Shown here: positions 6,485-16,646 of the stretch, piece by piece | How positions within the stretch are numbered: the stretch's first letter is position 1 | Layout of the letters: the number at the start of each line of letters is the position of its first letter | Source: Verrucomicrobiota bacterium | Lineage (GTDB): Bacteria; Verrucomicrobiota; Verrucomicrobiia; Opitutales; Opitutaceae | NCBI GenBank assembly: GCA_025361935.1 | Contig: JANYJB010000038.1 | Location: 1 to 45,519, forward strand | Reading direction: 5' to 3' | DNA: 45,519 bases | Translations under genes and position numbers: made by a program | The notes under the pieces: generated by a model | The model's input: only the letters and a program-made list of their open reading frames with translations | Told to the model about the DNA's origin: nothing | Database searches by the model: none

Positions 6485-7219
6485 TCACTCATCCGTCGTG
6501 ACTCGCCGGATATTTCCCAAGCCGGTGTCCATAACCAGCCATTGGCCTTCCCTGTGGACGCGCCCGCTCACTTCGACTGGTTCGGCCACGGTGCGCAGCA
6601 GGCCGTCCGTATCGCCAGACGCCACGCGCAACGCCACATGAATCTCCTGACCCGCGCGGTCTCGCACCACCAAAACCGGCGTGATGCCGCCGCGCAGGCA
6701 GAGGATGGCGCAAGCGCGGTGCAGCCGGCCTTCACCGGGATTCATGACGCCAAAGTAGCATTTGGGATCAACTATCTCCCCGCGCAGCGTGAACTCCCCC
6801 AGTTCGCCAGATGGTTGGTTTGGCGCAACCGTCTCTGTGATTTTTGCCGAGCCTGGCACTAATTCCAAGACTTCGCTGGTTCCCCTCGCGATGCGCGTGG
6901 CTTCCACCGCTATTGACCTTCCCGCTTCGCCGCAAAATTCCGGAGGCACCCCGTGTTTCCCCGGCCCGACCAACAGGTAATCGATTTCGGCGGTCGTCAG
7001 CCGCGCGACTCCGTTGCACTGCGCCACCCCGCGATAAACCTTCGGATGCCCAAACTCGAAGACACCCTCCCCGTAAAATGGCAGCACCGCCGCGACCCAC
7101 GCGCACGCCGCCAGCGCACCGCAGATGATCACTGTGACCACCCTCCGCGTGAAACGCCCCGTGCCTGCCGGTGCCTTCGGCAGATAACCCACGTAAAACT
7201 CTTCGTCCTCGTGCTTCAT
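6485..7219 (-). CDS. Membrane-anchored protein with a Cys/His motif, unknown function
   Basis: A 244-residue protein with one transmembrane helix (about 27-47) and a large, probably extracytoplasmic, C-terminal region. A compact cluster DPKCYFGVMNPGEG followed by HRACAILC places Cys154, His167, Cys170 and Cys174 together, suggesting a metal, haem or Fe-S site. This is a reading of spacing, not an identified fold. The ATG at 7219 overlaps the Rieske gene stop as ATGA, so the two proteins are probably made in fixed ratio and may form one electron-transfer complex. I do not recognise an experimentally characterised family. An upstream in-frame start would add 20 residues but would lie inside the Rieske gene. 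Confidence 0.6.
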   Translation of the reverse strand: MKHEDEEFYVGYLPKAPAGTGRFTRRVVTVIICGALAACAWVAAVLPFYGEGVFEFGHPKVYRGVAQCNGVARLTTAEIDYLLVGPGKHGVPPEFCGEAGRSIAVEATRIARGTSEVLELVPGSAKITETVAPNQPSGELGEFTLRGEIVDPKCYFGVMNPGEGRLHRACAILCLRGGITPVLVVRDRAGQEIHVALRVASGDTDGLLRTVAEPVEVSGRVHREGQWLVMDTGLGNIRRVTTDE

Positions 7220-8253
7220 GTCTCGATGAGAGCCGGCTCCACCCGCGTGCCCGCGGGCAACGGCTTGCTGTGAATCCACACGCGCCCGTCACGCACCGCC
7301 ACGCGGAAGGTTGGGATTTTCTCCGTAAACGGCGGCGGCGACGCTCCCGTGTCCGGCAGGTATTGGTAGCCGTGCCAGGGACAAGTGATGCAGCCGTCGA
7401 TCACCCTGCCCTCACCCAGCGGCCCATTCTGGTGTTGGCACACGGATGACACCGCGCTGATTTTTCCGTCATAGCGAAAAATCGCCACGCGCTCGCCCGC
7501 CGCCACGACGACCTTGGCGCGGTTGTCCGGGATCGCCTCCACCGGCCCCGCGTCGATCCAGCCGTCTTCGGCGACCACAGGCCGGGCTTGGTCTGTTTTT
7601 CCTCCGCGCCCCGCCGCGAGCAAATGCAGGCCGACCACGACGACGGCGCCAATCCCCACGACCCCGAGGATGATTCCTCCGTGCGGAGTCTGCCCCGCGC
7701 CAAACGCCACATGCGCGACCAGCAGCGCATACGCCGCATACACGAGCATGTGCAGCGCCTTCCACACCGGCGCGGTCAGGTTCGCCAGCCAGAAGTCATG
7801 GCTCGTCGCCGCCATCAGCACGAGGATCACCAGCGCGAAAAATCCGAACACCTGAAAAGGAAACAACGACGCCCGCGCCCAATCACCCTCGCCCGCCAGC
7901 ACATTCGCCAGCGGATCGACCACGCCCAACGCATGAAACTGGATAACTGCCACCGCCGCATGACCCATCGCCAGCACGCACATCGTCACCCCGAGATGAC
8001 GCCGATTGTAGAGCAGCGGCAGGAACCGCGCATCCAGCCGCGCCAGCGGGCCGATGCAGAGAATGACATGCAGCAGCACAAACGCCGCCGATCCCAGTGC
8101 GCGGATGAGCAACGTCTCCGGCGTGGCCCCCGCGTAAAGCAGCGCCCCCGTCGCGCAGAACACCGCGAGATACGCCCCGACGCCGCCCGCCAGCGCGAGA
8201 TCATAGAGCTTCTTCTGCCGGTTCCAACCCACCGCCTGATAACCCACGCTCAT
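7216..8253 (-). CDS. Ferric-reductase-like membrane protein fused to Rieske [2Fe-2S] domain
   Basis: A 345-residue fusion. The first 220 residues form several hydrophobic helices with His residues placed as in ferric-reductase/cytochrome b-type haem proteins, for example VLLHVILCIGPLARLD, GHAAVAVIQFHAL and ALHMLVYAAYALLVAH. The C-terminal third is a Rieske ferredoxin domain with both ligand pairs present: CQH in VCQHQNGPLGEG and CPWH in ITCPWHGYQY. It could pass electrons across or along the membrane. ATGA overlaps link it to a 50-residue membrane protein upstream and the Cys/His protein downstream. In this cluster it may feed an oxidative or reductive step on the lipid product, which is inference. 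Confidence 0.8.
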   Translation of the reverse strand: MSVGYQAVGWNRQKKLYDLALAGGVGAYLAVFCATGALLYAGATPETLLIRALGSAAFVLLHVILCIGPLARLDARFLPLLYNRRHLGVTMCVLAMGHAAVAVIQFHALGVVDPLANVLAGEGDWARASLFPFQVFGFFALVILVLMAATSHDFWLANLTAPVWKALHMLVYAAYALLVAHVAFGAGQTPHGGIILGVVGIGAVVVVGLHLLAAGRGGKTDQARPVVAEDGWIDAGPVEAIPDNRAKVVVAAGERVAIFRYDGKISAVSSVCQHQNGPLGEGRVIDGCITCPWHGYQYLPDTGASPPPFTEKIPTFRVAVRDGRVWIHSKPLPAGTRVEPALIET

Positions 8254-8827: not shown

Positions 8828-10306
8828 ATGTTCGAACAAGCCTTCAAAAATATCGACGACGTCCTCTGGAAGGATGCCGGCTGCACCAGCGAACTCGATT
8901 ACACCGAACAGACCTCCTGGCTCCTCTTCCTCAAATACCTCGACGCCCTCGAAAACGACAAGGCCACCGAGGCCGCCCTCGACGGCAAAAAATACGCCCA
9001 CATCCTCGACAAACCCTACCGCTGGGAATCCTGGGCCGCGCCCAAGGGCAAAGACGGCAAGATCGACCACAACACCGCCCGGACTGGCGACGACCTCATC
9101 CAGTTCGTCAACGCCAAGCTCTTCCCCCACCTGCAAGGTTTTAAGGCCAAGGCCACCGGTCCCAACACCATCGAATACAAGATCGGCGAGATCTTCGGTG
9201 AGATTAAGAACCGCATCCAGAGCGGCTACAACCTGCGCGAGATCATCGACCATATCGACGAACTCCGCTTCGCCTCCCAGACCGAGAAGCACGAGCTCTC
9301 CCATCTCTACGAGGCCAAGATCAAAAACATGGGCAACGCCGGTCGCAACGGCGGCGAATACTACACCCCGCGCCCGCTCATCCGCGCCATCGTCGCCGTC
9401 ACCGCGCCCCAGCTCGGCGAGACCCTCTGCGACCCCGCCGTCGGCTCGGCCGGCTTCCTCTGCGAAGCCTTCGATTACCTCCGCGTCCGGAACCCGAAGC
9501 GCACCACCGCCCAAGACAAGCGCCTCCAGGAAGCCACCCTCTACGGCAAGGAGAAGAAGTCCCTGGCCTACGTCATCGCGATCATGAACATGATCCTGCA
9601 CGGCATCGAGGCCCCCAATGTCATTCACACCAACACGCTCGCCGAAAACCTCGCCGACGTGCAGGAGAAGGACCGCTTCCACATCATCCTCGCCAACCCG
9701 CCCTTCGGCGGCAAAGAGCGCAAGGAGGTCCAGCAAAACTTCCCCATCCGCACCGGCGAGACCGCGTTCCTCTTCCTCCAGCACTTCATCAAGCTCCTCA
9801 AGGCCGGCGGTAGCGCCGGCGTGGTCATCAAAAACACCTTCCTGTCCAACACCGACAACGCGTCCGTCAGCCTGCGCAAAAAACTCCTCGAAGAGTGCAA
9901 CCTCCACACCGTCCTTGATTGCCCCGGCGGCACGTTCATCGGCGCCGGCGTGAAGACCGTCGTGCTCTTCTTTGAGAAAGGCGCCAAAACGCGCAAGGTG
10001 TGGTTCTACCAACTCGACCCCGGCCGCAACATGGGGAAGACCAACCCGCTCAACGACGCCGACCTCGCCGAGTTCATCGCGTTGCAGCAGACCAAGGCCG
10101 GCTCCCCGAAGAGCTGGAGCGTGGACGTGGCGGACATCGACCCGCAGACCTTCGACCTCTCCGTGAAGAACCCCAACGGTGGCGAGGAAGTCACCCACCG
10201 CAGCCCGGCGGACATCATGGAAGAAATCGCCGCGCTGGACGCCGAGAGCGCCGAAGTGCTGGGTCAAATCAAGCAACTTTTGAAGACCGAGAAAACCCAT
10301 GCCTAA
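8828..10306 (+). CDS. hsdM: Type I restriction-modification methyltransferase subunit HsdM
   Basis: A 492-residue N6-adenine DNA methyltransferase. With HsdS it protects the recognition site, and with HsdR it forms the restriction complex. The helical N-terminal domain is followed by GEYYTPRPLI, AdoMet-binding motif I DPAVGSAGFL (about D202) and catalytic motif IV NPPFGG (N290-F293). The ATG at 8828 begins MFEQAFKNID, standard for the family. The stop is overlapped by the KilA-N gene (8 nt). The C-terminal codons (AESAEVLGQIKQLL, from 10241) recur in shortened form before the DUF3800 gene and before hsdS. Those copies read GNIKALL and end there, so this tail (KQLLKTEKTHA) may have been altered when the KilA-N gene arrived. 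Confidence 0.95.
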   Translation: MFEQAFKNIDDVLWKDAGCTSELDYTEQTSWLLFLKYLDALENDKATEAALDGKKYAHILDKPYRWESWAAPKGKDGKIDHNTARTGDDLIQFVNAKLFPHLQGFKAKATGPNTIEYKIGEIFGEIKNRIQSGYNLREIIDHIDELRFASQTEKHELSHLYEAKIKNMGNAGRNGGEYYTPRPLIRAIVAVTAPQLGETLCDPAVGSAGFLCEAFDYLRVRNPKRTTAQDKRLQEATLYGKEKKSLAYVIAIMNMILHGIEAPNVIHTNTLAENLADVQEKDRFHIILANPPFGGKERKEVQQNFPIRTGETAFLFLQHFIKLLKAGGSAGVVIKNTFLSNTDNASVSLRKKLLEECNLHTVLDCPGGTFIGAGVKTVVLFFEKGAKTRKVWFYQLDPGRNMGKTNPLNDADLAEFIALQQTKAGSPKSWSVDVADIDPQTFDLSVKNPNGGEEVTHRSPADIMEEIAALDAESAEVLGQIKQLLKTEKTHA

Positions 10307-11129
10307 GAAGATCGAAGTTCTCGCCCGCGAAGTCCGCCTCACCGGCGTCAACGACCAGGATTACGTCTGCCTGACCGACATCGCCCGCTACAAAAACGCG
10401 GATGCCAGTGACGACCTGATCCGCAACTGGCTGCGCAACCGCAACACCCTCGAATTCCTCGGTCTCTGGGAGCAGATTAACAACCCCGGTTTTAATCCCG
10501 TCGAATTCGACGGGATTAGAATGCAGGCCGGTCTCAACAGCTTCACCCTCACGCCGAAGCAGTGGATCGAGCGCACGGGCGCCATCGGTATCCAGTCCAA
10601 GGCCGGTCGCTACGGCGGCACTTACGCCCATCTCGACATCGCCCTCGAGTTCGCCGCGTGGATCTCGGTCGAGTTCAAGCTCTACCTCATCAAAGAATTC
10701 CAGCGCCTCAAGGAAACCGAGCGCCAGACCCTCGGCTGGGACATCCGCCGCAACCTCGCCAGGATCAATTACCGCATCCACACCGACGCCATTCAGACTC
10801 ACCTCATCCCGCCGGAGCTGGGCAAAGCGCAGACCAGTCTCGTCTATGCCAGCGAGGCCGACGTGCTCAACATGGCCCTCTTCGGCCAGACCGCCGCCCA
10901 ATGGCGCGGCCAAAACCCCGGCGAGCAGGGCAACATCCGCGACCAGGCCACCGGTGCCCAGCTCGTGTGCCTCTCAAATCTCGAAAACCTCAACGCTCTG
11001 TTTATCGGCCAAGCCTTGCCCCAATCCGAACGCCTCACCCGCCTCAACCAGATCGCCATCCAGCAGATGAAACTGCTCACCGCCGATGAGCGGACGCCCA
11101 AATTGCCTGAAGGGAAGAAGGGCAAATGA
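10299..11129 (+). CDS. KilA-N domain DNA-binding protein
   Basis: A 276-residue protein. The N-terminal 130 residues match the KilA-N/APSES-type DNA-binding domain of phage and plasmid proteins (DYVCLTDIARYKN, IRNWLRNRNTLEFLGLWE, SFTLTPKQWIERTGAIGI, GGTYAHLDIALEFAAWIS). A helical C-terminal region follows. It starts 8 nt inside hsdM and its stop overlaps an ATG at 11126 (ATGA). KilA-N genes between hsdM and hsdS are accessory: they are not needed for type I activity and may be regulatory or anti-phage. A 26-bp perfect palindrome lies within it. A non-defensive passenger role is possible. Confidence 0.85.
   Translation: MPKKIEVLAREVRLTGVNDQDYVCLTDIARYKNADASDDLIRNWLRNRNTLEFLGLWEQINNPGFNPVEFDGIRMQAGLNSFTLTPKQWIERTGAIGIQSKAGRYGGTYAHLDIALEFAAWISVEFKLYLIKEFQRLKETERQTLGWDIRRNLARINYRIHTDAIQTHLIPPELGKAQTSLVYASEADVLNMALFGQTAAQWRGQNPGEQGNIRDQATGAQLVCLSNLENLNALFIGQALPQSERLTRLNQIAIQQMKLLTADERTPKLPEGKKGK
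10493..10518. repeat. 26-bp perfect palindrome inside the KilA-N gene
   Basis: Positions 10493-10505 are the exact reverse complement of 10506-10518, centred on TCGAATTCGA. The encoded residues (FNPVEFDGI) are typical of the KilA-N family, so the palindrome is made from normal coding sequence rather than an obvious insertion. It could form a cruciform or an mRNA hairpin, or act as an operator for the KilA-N protein itself. The last is speculation. Confidence 0.7.
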
Positions 11130-11149
11130 AAGCCATGGGAAACGGAGAG

Positions 11150-11210
11150 CCTGCCCTGAGCAAAGTCGAAGGGTGCCGAAGTGCTGGGCAACATCAAGGC
11201 GCTGTTATGA
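11150..11210 (+). pseudogene. Short interspersed repeat joined to truncated hsdM 3'-end copy
   Basis: Positions 11150-11174 are a short dyad element (CCTGCCCTGAGCAAAG onward, with CCCT/AGGG arms). This repeat type, translated as SKVEG or DFAQGR, is seen scattered through many bacterial genomes. Directly attached, 11175-11204 is a 30-nt stretch identical to 12080-12109. It encodes the HsdM tail AEVLGNIKAL and ends in L and TGA at 11205-11210. It is out of frame with its surroundings and cannot be translated as HsdM. The TGA overlaps the DUF3800 ATG. It is best read as a scar of recombination at the hsdM end. Confidence 0.75.
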
Positions 11211-11953
11211 ATGCCGGGGCCGAATCGCGTTTCATCGCCTTCTTCGATGAGTGCGGCGACCACTCGATGGACAAGATCGACCGGGATTTCCCCCTCTTTG
11301 TGCTCTCCACGATCATCGTGGAACGCACCGCCTACATCGAGACCGTGGTGCCCGCACTCACGCGGCTCAAGCTGCGCTTCTGGCCGCACGAAGGCGTCAA
11401 TCTCCACAGTCGCGACATTCGCAAAGCCCACGGCGATTTCGCTTTTCTCCAGGTGCCCGCCCAACGCCACGCCCTCCTCGGCGCCTTGAGCGAAATGTTG
11501 GCGGCTCTGCCATTCACGCTCTTCATCACCGCCATTCACAAGCAGGACCACCGCGACCGCTATGGCGCGCACGCCACCAATCCCTACGACCTTGCGCTCA
11601 CCTACACGTTTGAGCGCGTGCTCCACTTCCTCGAGGGCCACGGCGAAACCGCGTTGCCCGTGACCGCCGAGGCGCGCGGTAAAAATGAGGACAACGAACT
11701 CTCCGCCGCCTTCCTCCGCATCCTGACCCAGGGCACCCGCTACACCGACGCCGCGCGTTTTCAGCCGCTGCTTTGCCCGCTCACCTTTCGGCGCAAGTCC
11801 GACAATATCGCCGGCACCCAACTCGCCGATCTTTGTGCCCACCCCGCCGCGCGCAAAATCCTCAACCCCGACCAACCCAACCAAGCCTACGACATCATCG
11901 CCCGCCACCTCTACCGCCGCGACGCCGTCACCGGCTGGAAGGTGTTTCCGTGA
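11207..11953 (+). CDS. DUF3800 domain protein
   Basis: A 248-residue protein beginning FIAFFDECGDHS, the DUF3800 signature with acidic residues. It closes with SDNIAGTQLADLCAHPAARKIL, the conserved C-terminal segment. DUF3800 is thought to have an RNase H-like fold, but no activity is established. ATG 11207 is chosen because homology begins just after it and because it overlaps the TGA of the hsdM-tail remnant as ATGA. An ATG at 11126 overlapping the KilA-N stop would add 27 residues translated from repeat sequence and is less likely. These proteins often accompany defence and mobile loci. Here it sits between hsdM and hsdS as an accessory gene. Confidence 0.8.
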   Translation: MNAGAESRFIAFFDECGDHSMDKIDRDFPLFVLSTIIVERTAYIETVVPALTRLKLRFWPHEGVNLHSRDIRKAHGDFAFLQVPAQRHALLGALSEMLAALPFTLFITAIHKQDHRDRYGAHATNPYDLALTYTFERVLHFLEGHGETALPVTAEARGKNEDNELSAAFLRILTQGTRYTDAARFQPLLCPLTFRRKSDNIAGTQLADLCAHPAARKILNPDQPNQAYDIIARHLYRRDAVTGWKVFP

Positions 11954-12070
11954 GCAATAAAAAAGCGGCTCCGAGTAAACCCGGAAACCGCCTTCCGACC
12001 GAGAATTCCCAGTCCGTGCCAAAAACGTCACCCGTCGCCCCACTCCTGTCAACCCCGCCTTTGCCACCAC
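11954..12070. other. Spacer between DUF3800 gene and the hsdM-tail copy
   Basis: A 117-nt non-coding stretch. An imperfect hairpin near 11963-11994 (GCGG and CCGC outer arms with an inner TCCG/CGGA pair) lies just after the DUF3800 stop, but it lacks a T-run. The frame is open through to hsdS, but the encoded residues (Pro/Ser/Lys-rich) resemble nothing in HsdS. I see no gene here. Confidence 0.5.
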
Positions 12071-12115
12071 GCCGAGAGCGCCGAAGTGCTGGGCAACATC
12101 AAGGCGCTGCTTTGA
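12071..12115 (+). pseudogene. hsdM 3'-end remnant overlapping the hsdS start
   Basis: This segment encodes AESAEVLGNIKALL and a stop, the ancestral-looking tail of HsdM. It matches 10241-10263 in hsdM for 23 nt and 11175-11204 for 30 nt. Its TGA (12113-12115) overlaps the hsdS TTG start by TTGA. That is the arrangement expected when hsdM lay directly upstream of hsdS. It is now separated from hsdM by two inserted genes. Confidence 0.8.
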
Positions 12116-13332
12116 AGAAGGGGTGGCAGACAAAGAAGCTGGGCGATGTGTGTTCGTTACTGAACCGTGGTATTTCTCCGGCATATCTGGAGGAAGGCGG
12201 AGTCTGCGTTCTCAATCAGAAGTGCATTCGCGACCACGAGGTCAGCTACGAGCCTTCGCGCCGGCATGATTCGAAGGCAAAGAAGGTCGCGGCAGAGCGG
12301 TTTATTCAACTTGGTGATGTGTTGGTCAACTCGACGGGCACTGGCACGCTTGGACGTGTCGCGCAGGTGCGCGACGAACCCGAAGAAGCGACGACAGTTG
12401 ATTCCCACGTTACAATCGTGCGGCCCAAACCAGGTCTCTTTCACCTCGATTTCTTCGGTTACATGTTGGTCGTGATCGAAGACGCCATTAAGGAGGCCGG
12501 TGAAGGCTGTGGCGGCCAAACGGAACTTGCGCGGTCAGTTTTAGCGGAGCAGTTCTCGGTGAGTTATCCCGAGTCGTTGGCCGAACAGCAGCGGATCGTC
12601 GGCCTGCTCGACGAAGCGTTTGAGGGCATCGCCACCGCCAAAGCCAACGCCGAAAAGAACCTCCAAAACGCCCGCGCCCTCTTCGAAAGCCACCTCCAAT
12701 CCGTCTTCACCCAGCGCGGTAAGGGGTGGAAAGCGACAACGCTTGGAGCGGAGATTGATCTTCTCGCCGGGTTTGCATTCAAGAGCGCGCAATACACAAA
12801 CGACGACGATGACATTCGCCTTCTTCGGGGCGACAACATCATCCAAGGATGTCTTCGTTGGGACGATGTGAAGAGATGGCCAGCCGACGACACCGAAGAA
12901 TACGAGCGATACCAACTTGAAGAAGGCGATGTCGTGTTGGCGATGGATCGTCCGTGGGTAAAGGCCGGCTTGAAGCACGCGACCATTTCCGCAGACGACC
13001 TGCCATGCTTGCTTGTTCAGCGAACTGCTCGCCTGCGCGGCGGGGCGAATCTGGACAACCGTTTCCTGAAACTGCTCATCGGCAGTTCTGCTTTCACCAG
13101 TCACATTCTTGGCGTTCAAACGGGCATTGGCGTTCCGCACATCAGCGGGCAGCAAATCAAAGACTTCGAGCTTGCGCGTCCGCCAATCGCCGACCAACGC
13201 CGCATCGCAGACAATCTCGAATCCCTCCGCGAAGAAACCCAGCGCCTCGCCCGCCTCTACGAGCGGAAGCTCGCCGCGCTGGAGGCGTTAAAGAAGTCGC
13301 TCCTGCACCAAGCCTTCACTGGCGCACTCTGA
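12112..13332 (+). CDS. hsdS: Type I restriction-modification specificity subunit HsdS
   Basis: A 406-residue HsdS with two target-recognition domains, each opening in the usual way: WQTKKLGDVCSLLNRG near the N-terminus and WKATTLGAEIDLLAGF at about residue 205. Each is followed by a conserved helical spacer (LAEQQRIVGLLDEAF and IADQRRIADNLESL). The two TRDs differ, predicting a bipartite target whose sequence cannot be read from here. I take TTG 12112 as start because it gives KKGWQTKKLG, the normal HsdS opening, and overlaps the hsdM-tail stop. The open frame extends upstream to 11773 but that part is non-homologous. The gap to the BRO-like gene is 54 nt. Confidence 0.9.
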   Translation: MKKGWQTKKLGDVCSLLNRGISPAYLEEGGVCVLNQKCIRDHEVSYEPSRRHDSKAKKVAAERFIQLGDVLVNSTGTGTLGRVAQVRDEPEEATTVDSHVTIVRPKPGLFHLDFFGYMLVVIEDAIKEAGEGCGGQTELARSVLAEQFSVSYPESLAEQQRIVGLLDEAFEGIATAKANAEKNLQNARALFESHLQSVFTQRGKGWKATTLGAEIDLLAGFAFKSAQYTNDDDDIRLLRGDNIIQGCLRWDDVKRWPADDTEEYERYQLEEGDVVLAMDRPWVKAGLKHATISADDLPCLLVQRTARLRGGANLDNRFLKLLIGSSAFTSHILGVQTGIGVPHISGQQIKDFELARPPIADQRRIADNLESLREETQRLARLYERKLAALEALKKSLLHQAFTGAL

Positions 13333-13386: not shown

Positions 13387-14247
13387 ATGAGCCACCTCGT
13401 CCTCTTCGAGCAAAAACAGGTCCGCCGCGTCTGGCACGGCGAGGCGTGGTGGTTCGTCATCGTCGATATCGTCGCCGCCCTCACCGACTCGGCCAATCCG
13501 GCCGGCTATCTCAAGGACATGCGCCGCCGTGATGCGAGTTTGGGAGCGGTGTTCAAAGGGGGGGGGCAAATTGCCCCCCCCCTTACGCTCAAGGTCGAAA
13601 CGGAGGGTGGCAGCCAAAAAATCCTCTGCTGGCATACACCCGGCATCCTGCGCCTGATCCAGTCGATCCCTTCGCCCAAGGCCGAGCCATTCAAACGCTG
13701 GCTGGCCCAGGTCGGCTACGAGCGGTTGCAGGAAATCGAAAATCCCGAGATCGCCGCGCGGCGGATGAAAGAGATTTACCGCCTGAAAGGTTACTCCGGG
13801 GCGTGGATCGAAAAACGCATGCGCGGTATCGCCGTGCGTGACGAATTGACCGACGAGTGGAAGAAGCGCGGCGTCAAAGAAGACCGCGACTATGCGATCC
13901 TCACCGCCGAAATCAGCAAAGCCACCTTCGGCATGACACCGTCCGAGTATCGCGAACACAAGGCCTTGGATCGCCCGACCGACAACCTGCGCGATCACAT
14001 GACCGACTTGGAACTGATTTTCACGATGCTCGGCGAAGCCTCCACGACCGAAATCGCCCGGAACACCGACGCTCAGGGGTTTCCGCAGAACAAAGTGGCC
14101 GCCCGGCAGGGGGGTAAAATCGCCGGCAACGCCCGCCGCGAACTCGAAACCAAGAGCGGACGTCGCGTTTCAACCCGGGAAAATTTCAAGGAATTGACCG
14201 AAAGCCAGCGGCGGTTGCGGGAGAAGACCAAGGGCGACACCCCATGA
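13387..14247 (+). CDS. BRO / DinD-like protein
   Basis: A 286-residue protein. The N-terminal half is a BRO-N-type DNA-binding domain (VWHGEAWWFVIVDIVAALTDS, QSIPSPKAEPFKRWLAQVGYERLQEIENPE). The C-terminal half resembles DNA-damage-inducible protein D (YAILTAEISKATFGMTPSEYREHK, LRDHMTDLELIFTMLGEASTTEIA, GGKIAGNARRELE). The start at 13387 (MSHLVLFEQK) is supported by homology, and the stop overlaps hsdR by ATGA. Within the BRO domain a run of nine G and nine C forms a 25-nt inverted repeat. Position between hsdS and hsdR suggests a regulator or accessory of the restriction system, which is inference. Confidence 0.82.
   Translation: MSHLVLFEQKQVRRVWHGEAWWFVIVDIVAALTDSANPAGYLKDMRRRDASLGAVFKGGGQIAPPLTLKVETEGGSQKILCWHTPGILRLIQSIPSPKAEPFKRWLAQVGYERLQEIENPEIAARRMKEIYRLKGYSGAWIEKRMRGIAVRDELTDEWKKRGVKEDRDYAILTAEISKATFGMTPSEYREHKALDRPTDNLRDHMTDLELIFTMLGEASTTEIARNTDAQGFPQNKVAARQGGKIAGNARRELETKSGRRVSTRENFKELTESQRRLREKTKGDTP
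13558..13582. repeat. G9/C9 inverted repeat inside the BRO-like gene
   Basis: Nine G (13558-13566), a seven-base centre CAAATTG and nine C (13574-13582) form a near-perfect hairpin in coding sequence for GGGQIAPPL. Relatives commonly read KGWGQI..PL here, so the residues are family-like but the codons have converged on homopolymers. Runs of this length are prone to slippage. A one-base change in either run would frameshift the gene. Confidence 0.8.
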
Positions 14248-16646
14248 ACGAAGCCGAGACACGCGCCGAGCATATCGACCCCGCTTTGAAGGCGGCGGGC
14301 TGGGGCGTCGTCGAAGGCAGCAAGATTCTCCGCGAGCACCGCATCACCGCCGGTCGCATCGAAGGCCACGGAAGGCGCGGCAAGGCCGACATCGCCGACT
14401 ACGTGCTCGTCTATCGCAACACCAAGCTCGCCGTCATCGAGGCCAAGGCGTGGGACGAGGAACTCACCGAGGGCGTCGGCCAGGCCAAGGATTACGCCGC
14501 CAAGCTCGCCATCCGGTTCACCTATTCCACCAACGGACGCGGCATCTACGCCATCGACATGGAGACGGCCAAGGAAGGCGAGGTCACCGCCTATCCATCG
14601 CCGGACCAGCTCTGGGCGATGACCTTCATCAAGGCGAACGCGTGGCGCGACCGTTTCGCCGCCGTGACGTCGCCCGACAAGAGCGGCAGTTGGACGCTGC
14701 GGTTTTACCAAGAGATCGCCGTCAACCGCGTGTTGGAGCGCATCGCCGGCGAGCATCCGCGCATCCTGCTCACGCTGGCCACCGGCACGGGCAAAACATC
14801 CATCGCGTTCCAGATCGTGTGGAAGCTGTTTCAAGCCCGCTGGAATCTTGGTGATTGGAAAAAGACCAGCGAGCCGACGCGCCGCCCGCGCATTCTTTTT
14901 CTTGCCGACCGCAACACCCTCGCGACCCAAGCCTACAACGATTTCACGTCATTCGCCGCCTTTGCCGACGACGCGCTGGTGCGCATCAAGCCGGAAGACA
15001 TTCGCAAGAAAGGTTCCGTCCCCAAGAACGGCAGCCTGTTCTTCACGATCTTCCAAACGTTCATGTCCGGCCCCGATGATTCCGCCTACTTTGGCGAGTA
15101 TCCGGCGGACTTTTTTGATTTCATCGTCATCGACGAGTGTCACCGCGGCGGCGCCAACGACGAGAGCAGCTGGCGGGAGATTCTGGAATATTTCAAACCC
15201 GCCGTGCAACTCGGCCTCACTGCCACGCCCAAGCGCAAGGACAACGTCGATACCTACGCCTATTTCGGCGAACCGGTTTACACCTACTCGCTCAAGGACG
15301 GCATCAACGACGGCTTCCTCACGCCGTTCAAGGTGAAGCAGATTCAGACCACGCTCGACTACTACATCTACACGCCCGACGACGCCGTGGTGGAAGGCGA
15401 GATCGAGAAGGGGAAACTTTACGAGGAGGCTGACTTCAACCGCACCATCGAGATCCGCGAGCGCGAGAAGAAGCGCGTGCAACTCTTCCTGTCGCAGATC
15501 AACCAGAACGAAAAGACGCTCGTTTTCTGCGCCAACCAAGCCCACGCCCTCGTCATCCGCGACCTCATCAACCAGCTCAAGACGAGCAAAGACTCGAACT
15601 ATTGCGTGCGCGTCACGGCGGACGACGGCGAACGCGGCGAGCAGGCGTTGCGGGATTTCCAGGACAACGAGAAGACGATCCCCACGATCCTCACCACGTC
15701 GCAAAAACTCTCGACCGGCGTCGATGCGCGCAACATCCGCAACATCGTCCTGATGCGGCCGGTCAACTCGATGATCGAGTTCAAGCAGATCATCGGGCGC
15801 GGCACGCGGCTCTACGACGGGAAGGATTACTTCACGATCTACGACTTCGTGAAGGCGCACCTCAAATTCCAAGACCCCGAATGGGACGGCCCGCCCGAGC
15901 CCGACGAGCCCTGCACGAAGTGCTGCCAGATCCCGTGCATCTGCGAGACGACTCCGCCCAAACCATGTCCGCAATGCGGCAAGGTCCCGTGCGAATGCGG
16001 AAAAGAACCATGCCCCGCGTGCGGCAAGGTGAAGTGCGAATGCGAGCGGAAGCGAAAGGTGAAAGTGAAACTCGCCGACGGCAAAGAGCGCGCCATCCAG
16101 CACATGATGACGACGACGTTCTGGCATCCCGACGGAACGCCGATGAGCGCGCAGCAATTCATGGAGTTGCTCTTCGGCAAGCTGCCGGACTTCTTCCAAA
16201 GCGAAGCCGAACTCCGCACGCTATGGAGCGCGCCCGACACGCGGGCCAAGCTCCTGCAGGGTCTCGCCGAAAAGGATTTCGGCCACGACAAGCTGGTCGC
16301 GATGCAGCAACTCATCGACGCGGAGAACAGCGACCTCTTCGACGTGCTGGCTTACGTGGCTTATCTGTTGCCGCCGGTGACGCGGGCCGAGCGCGCCGAT
16401 CATGCGCGGGTGTATATCAACTCGCACTTCACCTCGAAGCAGCAGGCCTTCCTGAATTTCGTGCTCCAGCACTACGTGACGGAAGGCGTGACGGAACTGG
16501 ACCAGAGCAAGCTGAACCCCTTGTTGCGGCTAAAGTATCACGACTCCATCGCCGACGCCGTAGCCGACCTCGGCGGCAAGCCCGAAGAGATAAACCAAGT
16601 CTTCGCGGGTTTCCAGAAGTATCTCTACACTGAGAAGTCGAGTTGA
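14244..16646 (+). CDS. hsdR: Type I restriction endonuclease subunit HsdR
   Basis: An 800-residue motor and nuclease subunit. The N-terminal PD-(D/E)xK nuclease is visible as D52 then E66-A-K68 (ADYVLVY, VIEAKAW). The helicase core has Walker A GTGKT (about 181-185), DECH (about 297-300), TATPKRKDN, and motif VI QIIGRGTRLYDG. Between the helicase and C-terminal domains (about 557-600) lies a segment with 13 Cys arranged as three CxxC...CxC repeats (CPQCGKVPCEC, CPACGKVKCEC), probably zinc-binding. It overlaps the BRO-like gene by ATGA. This is the last gene of the RM operon and no terminator follows it. Intact landmarks suggest activity. Confidence 0.94.
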   Translation: MNEAETRAEHIDPALKAAGWGVVEGSKILREHRITAGRIEGHGRRGKADIADYVLVYRNTKLAVIEAKAWDEELTEGVGQAKDYAAKLAIRFTYSTNGRGIYAIDMETAKEGEVTAYPSPDQLWAMTFIKANAWRDRFAAVTSPDKSGSWTLRFYQEIAVNRVLERIAGEHPRILLTLATGTGKTSIAFQIVWKLFQARWNLGDWKKTSEPTRRPRILFLADRNTLATQAYNDFTSFAAFADDALVRIKPEDIRKKGSVPKNGSLFFTIFQTFMSGPDDSAYFGEYPADFFDFIVIDECHRGGANDESSWREILEYFKPAVQLGLTATPKRKDNVDTYAYFGEPVYTYSLKDGINDGFLTPFKVKQIQTTLDYYIYTPDDAVVEGEIEKGKLYEEADFNRTIEIREREKKRVQLFLSQINQNEKTLVFCANQAHALVIRDLINQLKTSKDSNYCVRVTADDGERGEQALRDFQDNEKTIPTILTTSQKLSTGVDARNIRNIVLMRPVNSMIEFKQIIGRGTRLYDGKDYFTIYDFVKAHLKFQDPEWDGPPEPDEPCTKCCQIPCICETTPPKPCPQCGKVPCECGKEPCPACGKVKCECERKRKVKVKLADGKERAIQHMMTTTFWHPDGTPMSAQQFMELLFGKLPDFFQSEAELRTLWSAPDTRAKLLQGLAEKDFGHDKLVAMQQLIDAENSDLFDVLAYVAYLLPPVTRAERADHARVYINSHFTSKQQAFLNFVLQHYVTEGVTELDQSKLNPLLRLKYHDSIADAVADLGGKPEEINQVFAGFQKYLYTEKSS

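Follow-up and report, generated by a model that had tools for sequence, protein, structure and literature searches.

Copies of the hsdM 3' end beside cargo genes in type I restriction-modification operons as probable remnants of earlier hsdM genes

Type I restriction-modification (RM) operons can harbor additional genes, as exemplified by the rlo and mlo genes within Campylobacter type I loci and by prrC within EcoprrI, and we know of no stub of an upstream gene at these loci. Embedded defence candidates are represented in PADLOC by the PDC families, whose names reportedly originate from a preprint by Payne et al. In a type I operon of enteropathogenic Escherichia coli (EPEC), DarTG2 lies between hsdS and hsdR (excerpts of PMC12255303), and hsdM and hsdS of EcoKI were reported to be translationally coupled, with DNA of the hsdM tail proposed to have entered HsdS (excerpts of PMC3510504). 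Herein, we describe a type I operon on a 45,519-nt stretch of DNA from a Verrucomicrobiota bacterium of the Opitutaceae (assembly GCA_025361935.1, contig JANYJB010000038.1, positions 1 to 45,519 of the forward strand; this whole stretch is termed the window), in which a KilA-N gene and a DUF3800 gene stand between hsdM and hsdS, and short copies of the hsdM 3' end, termed stubs, precede DUF3800 and hsdS. In the open-access library searched, no account of hsdM-tail stubs before inserted genes was recognised.

The first-pass annotation of the window, made from its letters and open reading frames, had claimed that the end of hsdM recurs before DUF3800 and before hsdS. A repeat search recovered this as a three-copy family at 10245-10286 (69%), 11170-11211 (the reference) and 12075-12116 (90%), and a profile of relatives' hsdM tails scored copies 2 and 3 at 46.1 and 54.1 bits, compared with 18.4 bits for the best of 100 shuffled versions of that stretch. 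The 30 identical bases noticed at first consist of an exact 29-nt core, 11175-11203 being equal to 12080-12108, and one further agreeing base. The tail stops do overlap possible starts of the next genes, ATGA at 11207 for DUF3800 and TTGA at 12112, the ancestral place, for hsdS. Earlier in-frame starts are open through the copies as well, namely ATG 11126, which overlaps the KilA-N stop, and GTG 11950, which overlaps the DUF3800 stop and would give HsdS a 54-codon extension running through copy 3; a stop/start overlap for hsdS of the window is obtained only via the stub or upstream starts. Copy 1, inside hsdM, is the most diverged of the three, and its last codons are common to the hsdM/KilA-N junctions of loci L004, L005 and L018 and differ from those of the cargo-free relative L006 (hsdM 93%). 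Copy 3 shows 1 mismatch to the L006 tail in the stretch compared. In its own genome, the 29-nt pattern is found only as the two stubs, and a repeat scattered through the genome was rejected, the BLAST search of the hsdM end having returned itself and one stub.

Relatives were gathered from contigs of species genomes (hsdM loci from the best 80 of 567 relatives), from whole-genome searches of 94, 387, 343 and 398 genomes, of which 9, 21, 10 and 15 passed the E-values set (some of them were searched twice), from plasmids (16 records, of which 5 were used) and from viral contigs (10 hsdM loci). After removal of duplicates, 136 rows contained the window twice (L084 is the window), which left 135 distinct loci; 14 rows without an hsdS found, L084 among them, and 5 with odd spacing were counted neither as abutting nor as cargo loci. 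The hsdM gene directly abuts hsdS in 69 of the 135 loci, 62 of them with a 4-nt NTGA overlap of stop and start (ATGA 47, GTGA 12, TTGA 3). In the ancestral operon, as shown in relatives, hsdM and hsdS overlap by 4 nt, which agrees with the initial proposal that hsdM once abutted hsdS. Among 48 loci with a gap, seven were dropped for a mis-placed start lying, as judged from the peptides, on the second half of HsdS (L045, L123, L124, L126, L188, L196, L197), and one belonged to a distant family (L144), which left 40 cargo loci.

With the position fixed by the hsdS start, ten of the 40 cargo loci (L058, L016, L018, the window, L059, L120, L004, L071, L008 and L021) scored 25.8-63.8 bits, and the best of 84 hsdR starts reached 7.0 bits. 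These clear stubs measure 25-48 nt. Weaker scores of 10.8-16.8 bits were obtained for L005, L050, L036, L060 and L011, the L005 stub being split by a second insert, and two further loci, at 8.1 and 7.6 bits, lie barely above the hsdR-start maximum. The hsdS-start position ranked first of all gap positions in 13 loci and second in 2, and a stub of 37.6 bits emerged at L190 after its hsdS start had been corrected. Within the last 100 nt before hsdS, an hsdM tail of at least 20.9 bits was present in 12/40 loci, and within the last 100 nt before hsdR, hsdS tails never exceeded 12.5 bits (0/62 gaps), normal hsdS tails having a median of 48.7. Stub formation at every junction was rejected, none being found before hsdR in 51 gaps with the two best matches each or in the recount of 62 gaps. 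The stub pattern is genuine and is met repeatedly, in several lineages. Separately, strong additional hsdS-tail matches were noticed 885-1495 nt before hsdR in L005, L041, L051, L062 and L115, perhaps representing second hsdS genes or fragments.

We prefer, with a probability of roughly 0.64, the reading that the stubs are remnants of an earlier hsdM, produced through a homologous left joint and a non-allelic right joint with retention of the start signal. The incoming DNA would consist of an hsdM 3' end and a cargo gene, as two chimeric hsdM genes in relatives suggest. Its left side would enter by homologous recombination within hsdM, and its right side, lacking long homology, would be attached within the 3' end of the resident hsdM, the last codons of which may remain before hsdS and keep its start working. 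The stubs look like leftovers of the resident hsdM because in nine of the ten clear cases the stub resembles some cargo-free tail of another genome more closely than its own upstream hsdM end (choosing the nearest of many favours this outcome), and because hsdM is chimeric in L120 and L018. The L120 gene matches that of the cargo-free L006 at 90-100% per 60-nt block (85-88% in two blocks) as far as about position 10147 in window coordinates, and at 85, 63 and 72% beyond; its own tail carries 17/45 mismatches to L006, its stub 3/42. The L120 hsdM gave an alignment of two overlapping segments and may therefore be frameshifted. In L018, hsdM switches its nearest relatives near 9630. This evidence lends no support to the earlier idea that the tail was duplicated at insertion as a homology handle.

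Why a stub should be retained is probably explained by the hsdS start signal, which seems to sit within the hsdM tail. Among the 62 abutting tails, 31 carry arginine at hsdM codon -4, encoded as AGG 17 times, CGG 12, CGA 2 and CGC 0 times, and in gene bodies CGC accounts for 66% of arginine codons. AGA or AGG was observed 17 times at this codon versus 2.05 expected, and 0/20,000 simulations reached 17. This choice creates a purine-rich, ribosome-binding-site-like stretch shortly upstream of the hsdS start, and the bias suggests that the last hsdM codons hold the ribosome-binding site of hsdS. A retained start signal would account for stub retention better than a recombination handle does.

Ribosomes probably reach the downstream gene by translating through the stub, in either of two frames. 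Beginning at a start that overlaps the stop of the cargo gene, the stub is open in the frame of the downstream gene in both copies of the window and in L004, L005, L008, L016, L018, L059, L060 and L071; in L058, L120, L190 and genome G1261, it is the former hsdM frame that stays open as far as the ATGA. In L021 and L036, the upstream reading frame continues into HsdS without a stop.

If KilA-N arrived later than DUF3800, a genome with the order hsdM-DUF3800-stub-hsdS should exist. A search for the tail pattern (29 nt, at most 3 mismatches) gave 9 matches in 6 of 150 family genomes and, with the reversed pattern in the same 150 genomes, zero. Each of the nine matches (9/9) sits either at the end of an hsdM or ahead of hsdS or DUF3800 in such operons, so that the tail was not encountered before unrelated genes outside RM operons, as the first-pass annotation had required of its reading. 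One contig of G1261 ends in hsdM-ATGA-DUF3800, with DUF3800 93% identical over residues 1-182, and another begins with the DUF3800 end followed by a linker, stub, hsdS and hsdR, KilA-N being absent. In the window, DUF3800 would accordingly have been inserted first and left copy 3, the state seen on the two contig ends of G1261, and KilA-N would have followed and left copy 2 before DUF3800. This intermediate supports the original suggestion that the two genes were added singly, each leaving a tail copy, and the history of the operon proposed at first sight appears mostly right.

Several observations weigh against this account. The G1261 arrangement spans two unjoined contigs, the neighbourhood of whose ends is an inference. 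No donor molecule was seen, hsdM of the window is not a clear chimera, the 3' part of the L018 gene is nearest to L011 and L114 rather than to KilA-N loci, and the L008 stub has 7 mismatches to a foreign tail against 6 to its own. A plain count of Shine-Dalgarno matches before hsdS stayed within the range of shifted control windows, and in the absence of a clear excess the start-signal argument rests on codon choice. Stub mismatches by codon position (14, 12, 19) do not tell which frame was kept. Moreover, 24 of the 40 cargo loci lack a stub, three of them KilA-N relatives (L034, L012 with a decayed copy, and L128 with an uncertain hsdS start), and in several stub-free loci the cargo stop itself overlaps the hsdS start. 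For about eight of the 40 loci the position of hsdS's first codon is not certain, which leaves the absence of a stub there less than firm. Different cargo types are followed by the tail, as first expected, though not always; the three KilA-N relatives just named speak in part against the first-pass reading, which relatives with the same cargo but no tail copies were to refute, and against any strict rule. At L042 (about 7099-7287), an internally deleted KilA-N gene lies before hsdS, behind a four-helix cargo, and its stop, in place of an hsdM stub, overlaps the hsdS start; the remnant may therefore come from the end of whatever gene stood before hsdS.

An extension of the preferred reading, which we put forward tentatively and regard as clearly less probable than that reading itself, treats the end of hsdM as a socket. 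Because this tail would hold the hsdS start signal, successful insertions would spare it or substitute an equivalent end, stubs would accumulate, and they would then serve as short homology for the successive stacking or exchange of defence genes, as in the order KilA-N, stub, DUF3800, stub, hsdS. If true, this principle would extend to every case in which the upstream gene contains the start signal of the next, and the stubs would constitute a readable record of gene loading.

Unlikely is the proposal that the tail is a reusable homology handle, by which recombination between copies loads, swaps and removes cargo. Five unrelated cargo kinds do adjoin the same tail, and L005 and the window have KilA-N and the 24-nt stub insert in common, the stub being followed by hsdS in L005 and by DUF3800 in the window; one recombination end therefore probably lay in or beside the stub. 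This single case hints at a possible use of stubs as handles. Nevertheless, stub lengths and left edges vary, homologous recombination would ordinarily need more than the length of the clear stubs, both breakpoints that were mapped fall in hsdM, about 130 (L120) and 650 nt (L018) upstream, and 24 of the 40 cargo loci show no stub.

Somewhat less probable again is that stubs persist chiefly as coding sequence, supplying HsdS or DUF3800 with N-terminal extensions read in another hsdM frame (SAGQHQGA). This view is favoured by the frame that runs open from starts overlapping cargo stops at the loci listed above, by the replacement of the old start codon (window, TTG; L021, TCG) and by the preservation of frame by the 24-nt insert. 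It is countered by G1261, where a 1-nt difference puts the linker in the hsdM frame with the ATG kept, and by a stop in the hsdS frame of L058; the substitution pattern is uninformative, and even among normal tails 55 of 89 have this frame open.

It is improbable that the copies arose at each insertion through tandem duplication of the local hsdM tail or through a short target-site duplication. The cargo is indeed flanked by direct repeats, and in L008 the own tail and the stub show 6/43 differences, no worse than the nearest foreign tail. The foreign cargo-free tail is, however, closer in 9/10 stubs, and L120 departs from its lineage in its own tail, though not in its stub; set beside L006, it already resembles a near-isogenic pair, one filled and one empty, in which the own tail is the newcomer. 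Stub length is not fixed, so the fixed-length duplication typical of site-specific or transposon insertion is missing, and no transposase, integrase or other recombinase family occurred among the cargo proteins scanned, which were those of the loci collected first. Chance similarity or an assembly artefact, conceivable inasmuch as most genomes are metagenome-assembled, deserves next to no weight and was rejected by the shuffle, hsdR-start and last-100-nt controls, with scores far above both shuffles and the 84 hsdR starts and the same structure in separate assemblies from different phyla by title.

The features are compiled in Table 1. In the window, hsdM, hsdS and hsdR form one cluster on one strand, as in a type I RM operon, and the hsdM 3' end is lengthened so that it overlaps the KilA-N start. 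The extra genes between hsdM and hsdS are probable defence genes. Profiles of the PDC type matched the KilA-N and BRO-N genes of the window, and the PADLOC profile scan gave no match for its DUF3800 gene. The cargo beside stubs comprises KilA-N, DUF3800, YhcG/DUF1016 and Fic proteins and a four-helix bundle with a suffix domain, the last matched in L058 and L071 and similar by eye in L120; the PADLOC matches are PDC-S22 for KilA-N, PDC-S13 for BRO-N, PDC-S02 for YhcG and PDC-S04 for Fic. A survey of 387 genomes for DUF3800 relatives gave 16 places besides the window itself, and in just one of them, L144, does DUF3800 directly follow an hsdM; that hsdM is distant (29%), implying that DUF3800 follows hsdM in another type I family too.

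Table 1. Coordinates of the operon features, tail copies and related elements (window positions unless a locus is named)
Feature	Position	Strand	Evidence
hsdM (type I methyltransferase)	8828..10306	+	Pfam N6_Mtase 2e-61; PADLOC MTase_I 3.1e-164
KilA-N cargo gene, PADLOC PDC-S22	10299..11129	+	Pfam KilA-N 4.5e-21; PDC-S22 4.7e-129
DUF3800 cargo gene	11126..11953	+	Pfam DUF3800 6.9e-13; ORF list
hsdS	11950..13332	+	Pfam Methylase_S 9.7e-12
BRO-N cargo gene between hsdS and hsdR, PADLOC PDC-S13	13387..14247	+	
hsdR	14244..16646	+	Pfam ResIII 6e-37, EcoEI_R_C 8e-33
Tail copy 1, functional hsdM 3' end	10245..10286	+	
Tail copy 2, putative hsdM stub, stop overlapping DUF3800 ATG	11175..11210	+	
Tail copy 3, putative hsdM stub before hsdS	12071..12115	+	
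24-nt insert within tail copy 2	11151..11174	+	Comparison with L004; matching insert at same point in L005
Nucleotidyltransferase-like/HsdS fusion (apparent)	L021 6893-7223; L036 6895-7213; L087/L130; L195		

The 24-nt inserts, one in the window and two before hsdS in L005, hold CCCTGAGC and GTCGAA, each preserving the frame, and the insert motif CCCTGAGCNNNGTCGAAGGG has 4 exact matches in 3 of 12 genomes. As a cause of the repeats the insert was rejected, since it sits inside the stub and must have arrived later. In the loci listed in the last row of Table 1, a frame with a nucleotidyltransferase-like ending (LREHIERVGKLFYER, as in L069) is apparently fused in frame to HsdS. The KilA-N gene of the window contains a palindrome with 17-nt arms (94%) at 10490-10521, and the inverted self-match at this site also occurs in KilA-N relatives and, alone, in L077. 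A perfect palindrome, AAGGGGGGGGGCAA/TTGCCCCCCCCCTT, lies at 13556-13584 in the BRO-N gene, whose runs of G and C could allow on/off switching of the gene.

These results bear on how defence genes can enter a restriction operon and leave it working. If insertions have to leave intact the hsdS start signal located in the hsdM tail, a stub would mark an event, order events and separate resident from incoming parts. In addition, automatic gene starts for hsdS and for cargo genes beside stubs may be wrong.

Extra genes reside inside the hsd operon as they do in the rlo/mlo and prrC loci, and the cargo described here matches families of embedded defence candidates (PADLOC PDC families). The excerpts of PMC12255303 speak of embedded genes and mention no junction stub; the type I operon of EPEC likewise harbors additional defence genes, those of DarTG2, at the hsdS-hsdR border, where no stubs were found here. 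As for the mechanism, homology-facilitated illegitimate recombination (as outlined in excerpts of PMC3240628) combines a homologous joint on one side with an illegitimate joint on the other, a combination that the sequences suggest for the present operons too; in the cases described there, the insert usually comes with a deletion of comparable size, whereas the right joint proposed here lies at the extreme 3' end of the resident hsdM. A parallel for the stub is offered by EcoKI (as presented in excerpts of PMC3510504), where hsdM and hsdS overlap as in the relatives of our operon and hsdM-tail DNA was also proposed to end up in HsdS; uptake of the tail there is ascribed to a frameshift fusing the subunits, whereas here a stub would be left behind after the insertion of foreign DNA, and also before genes other than hsdS.

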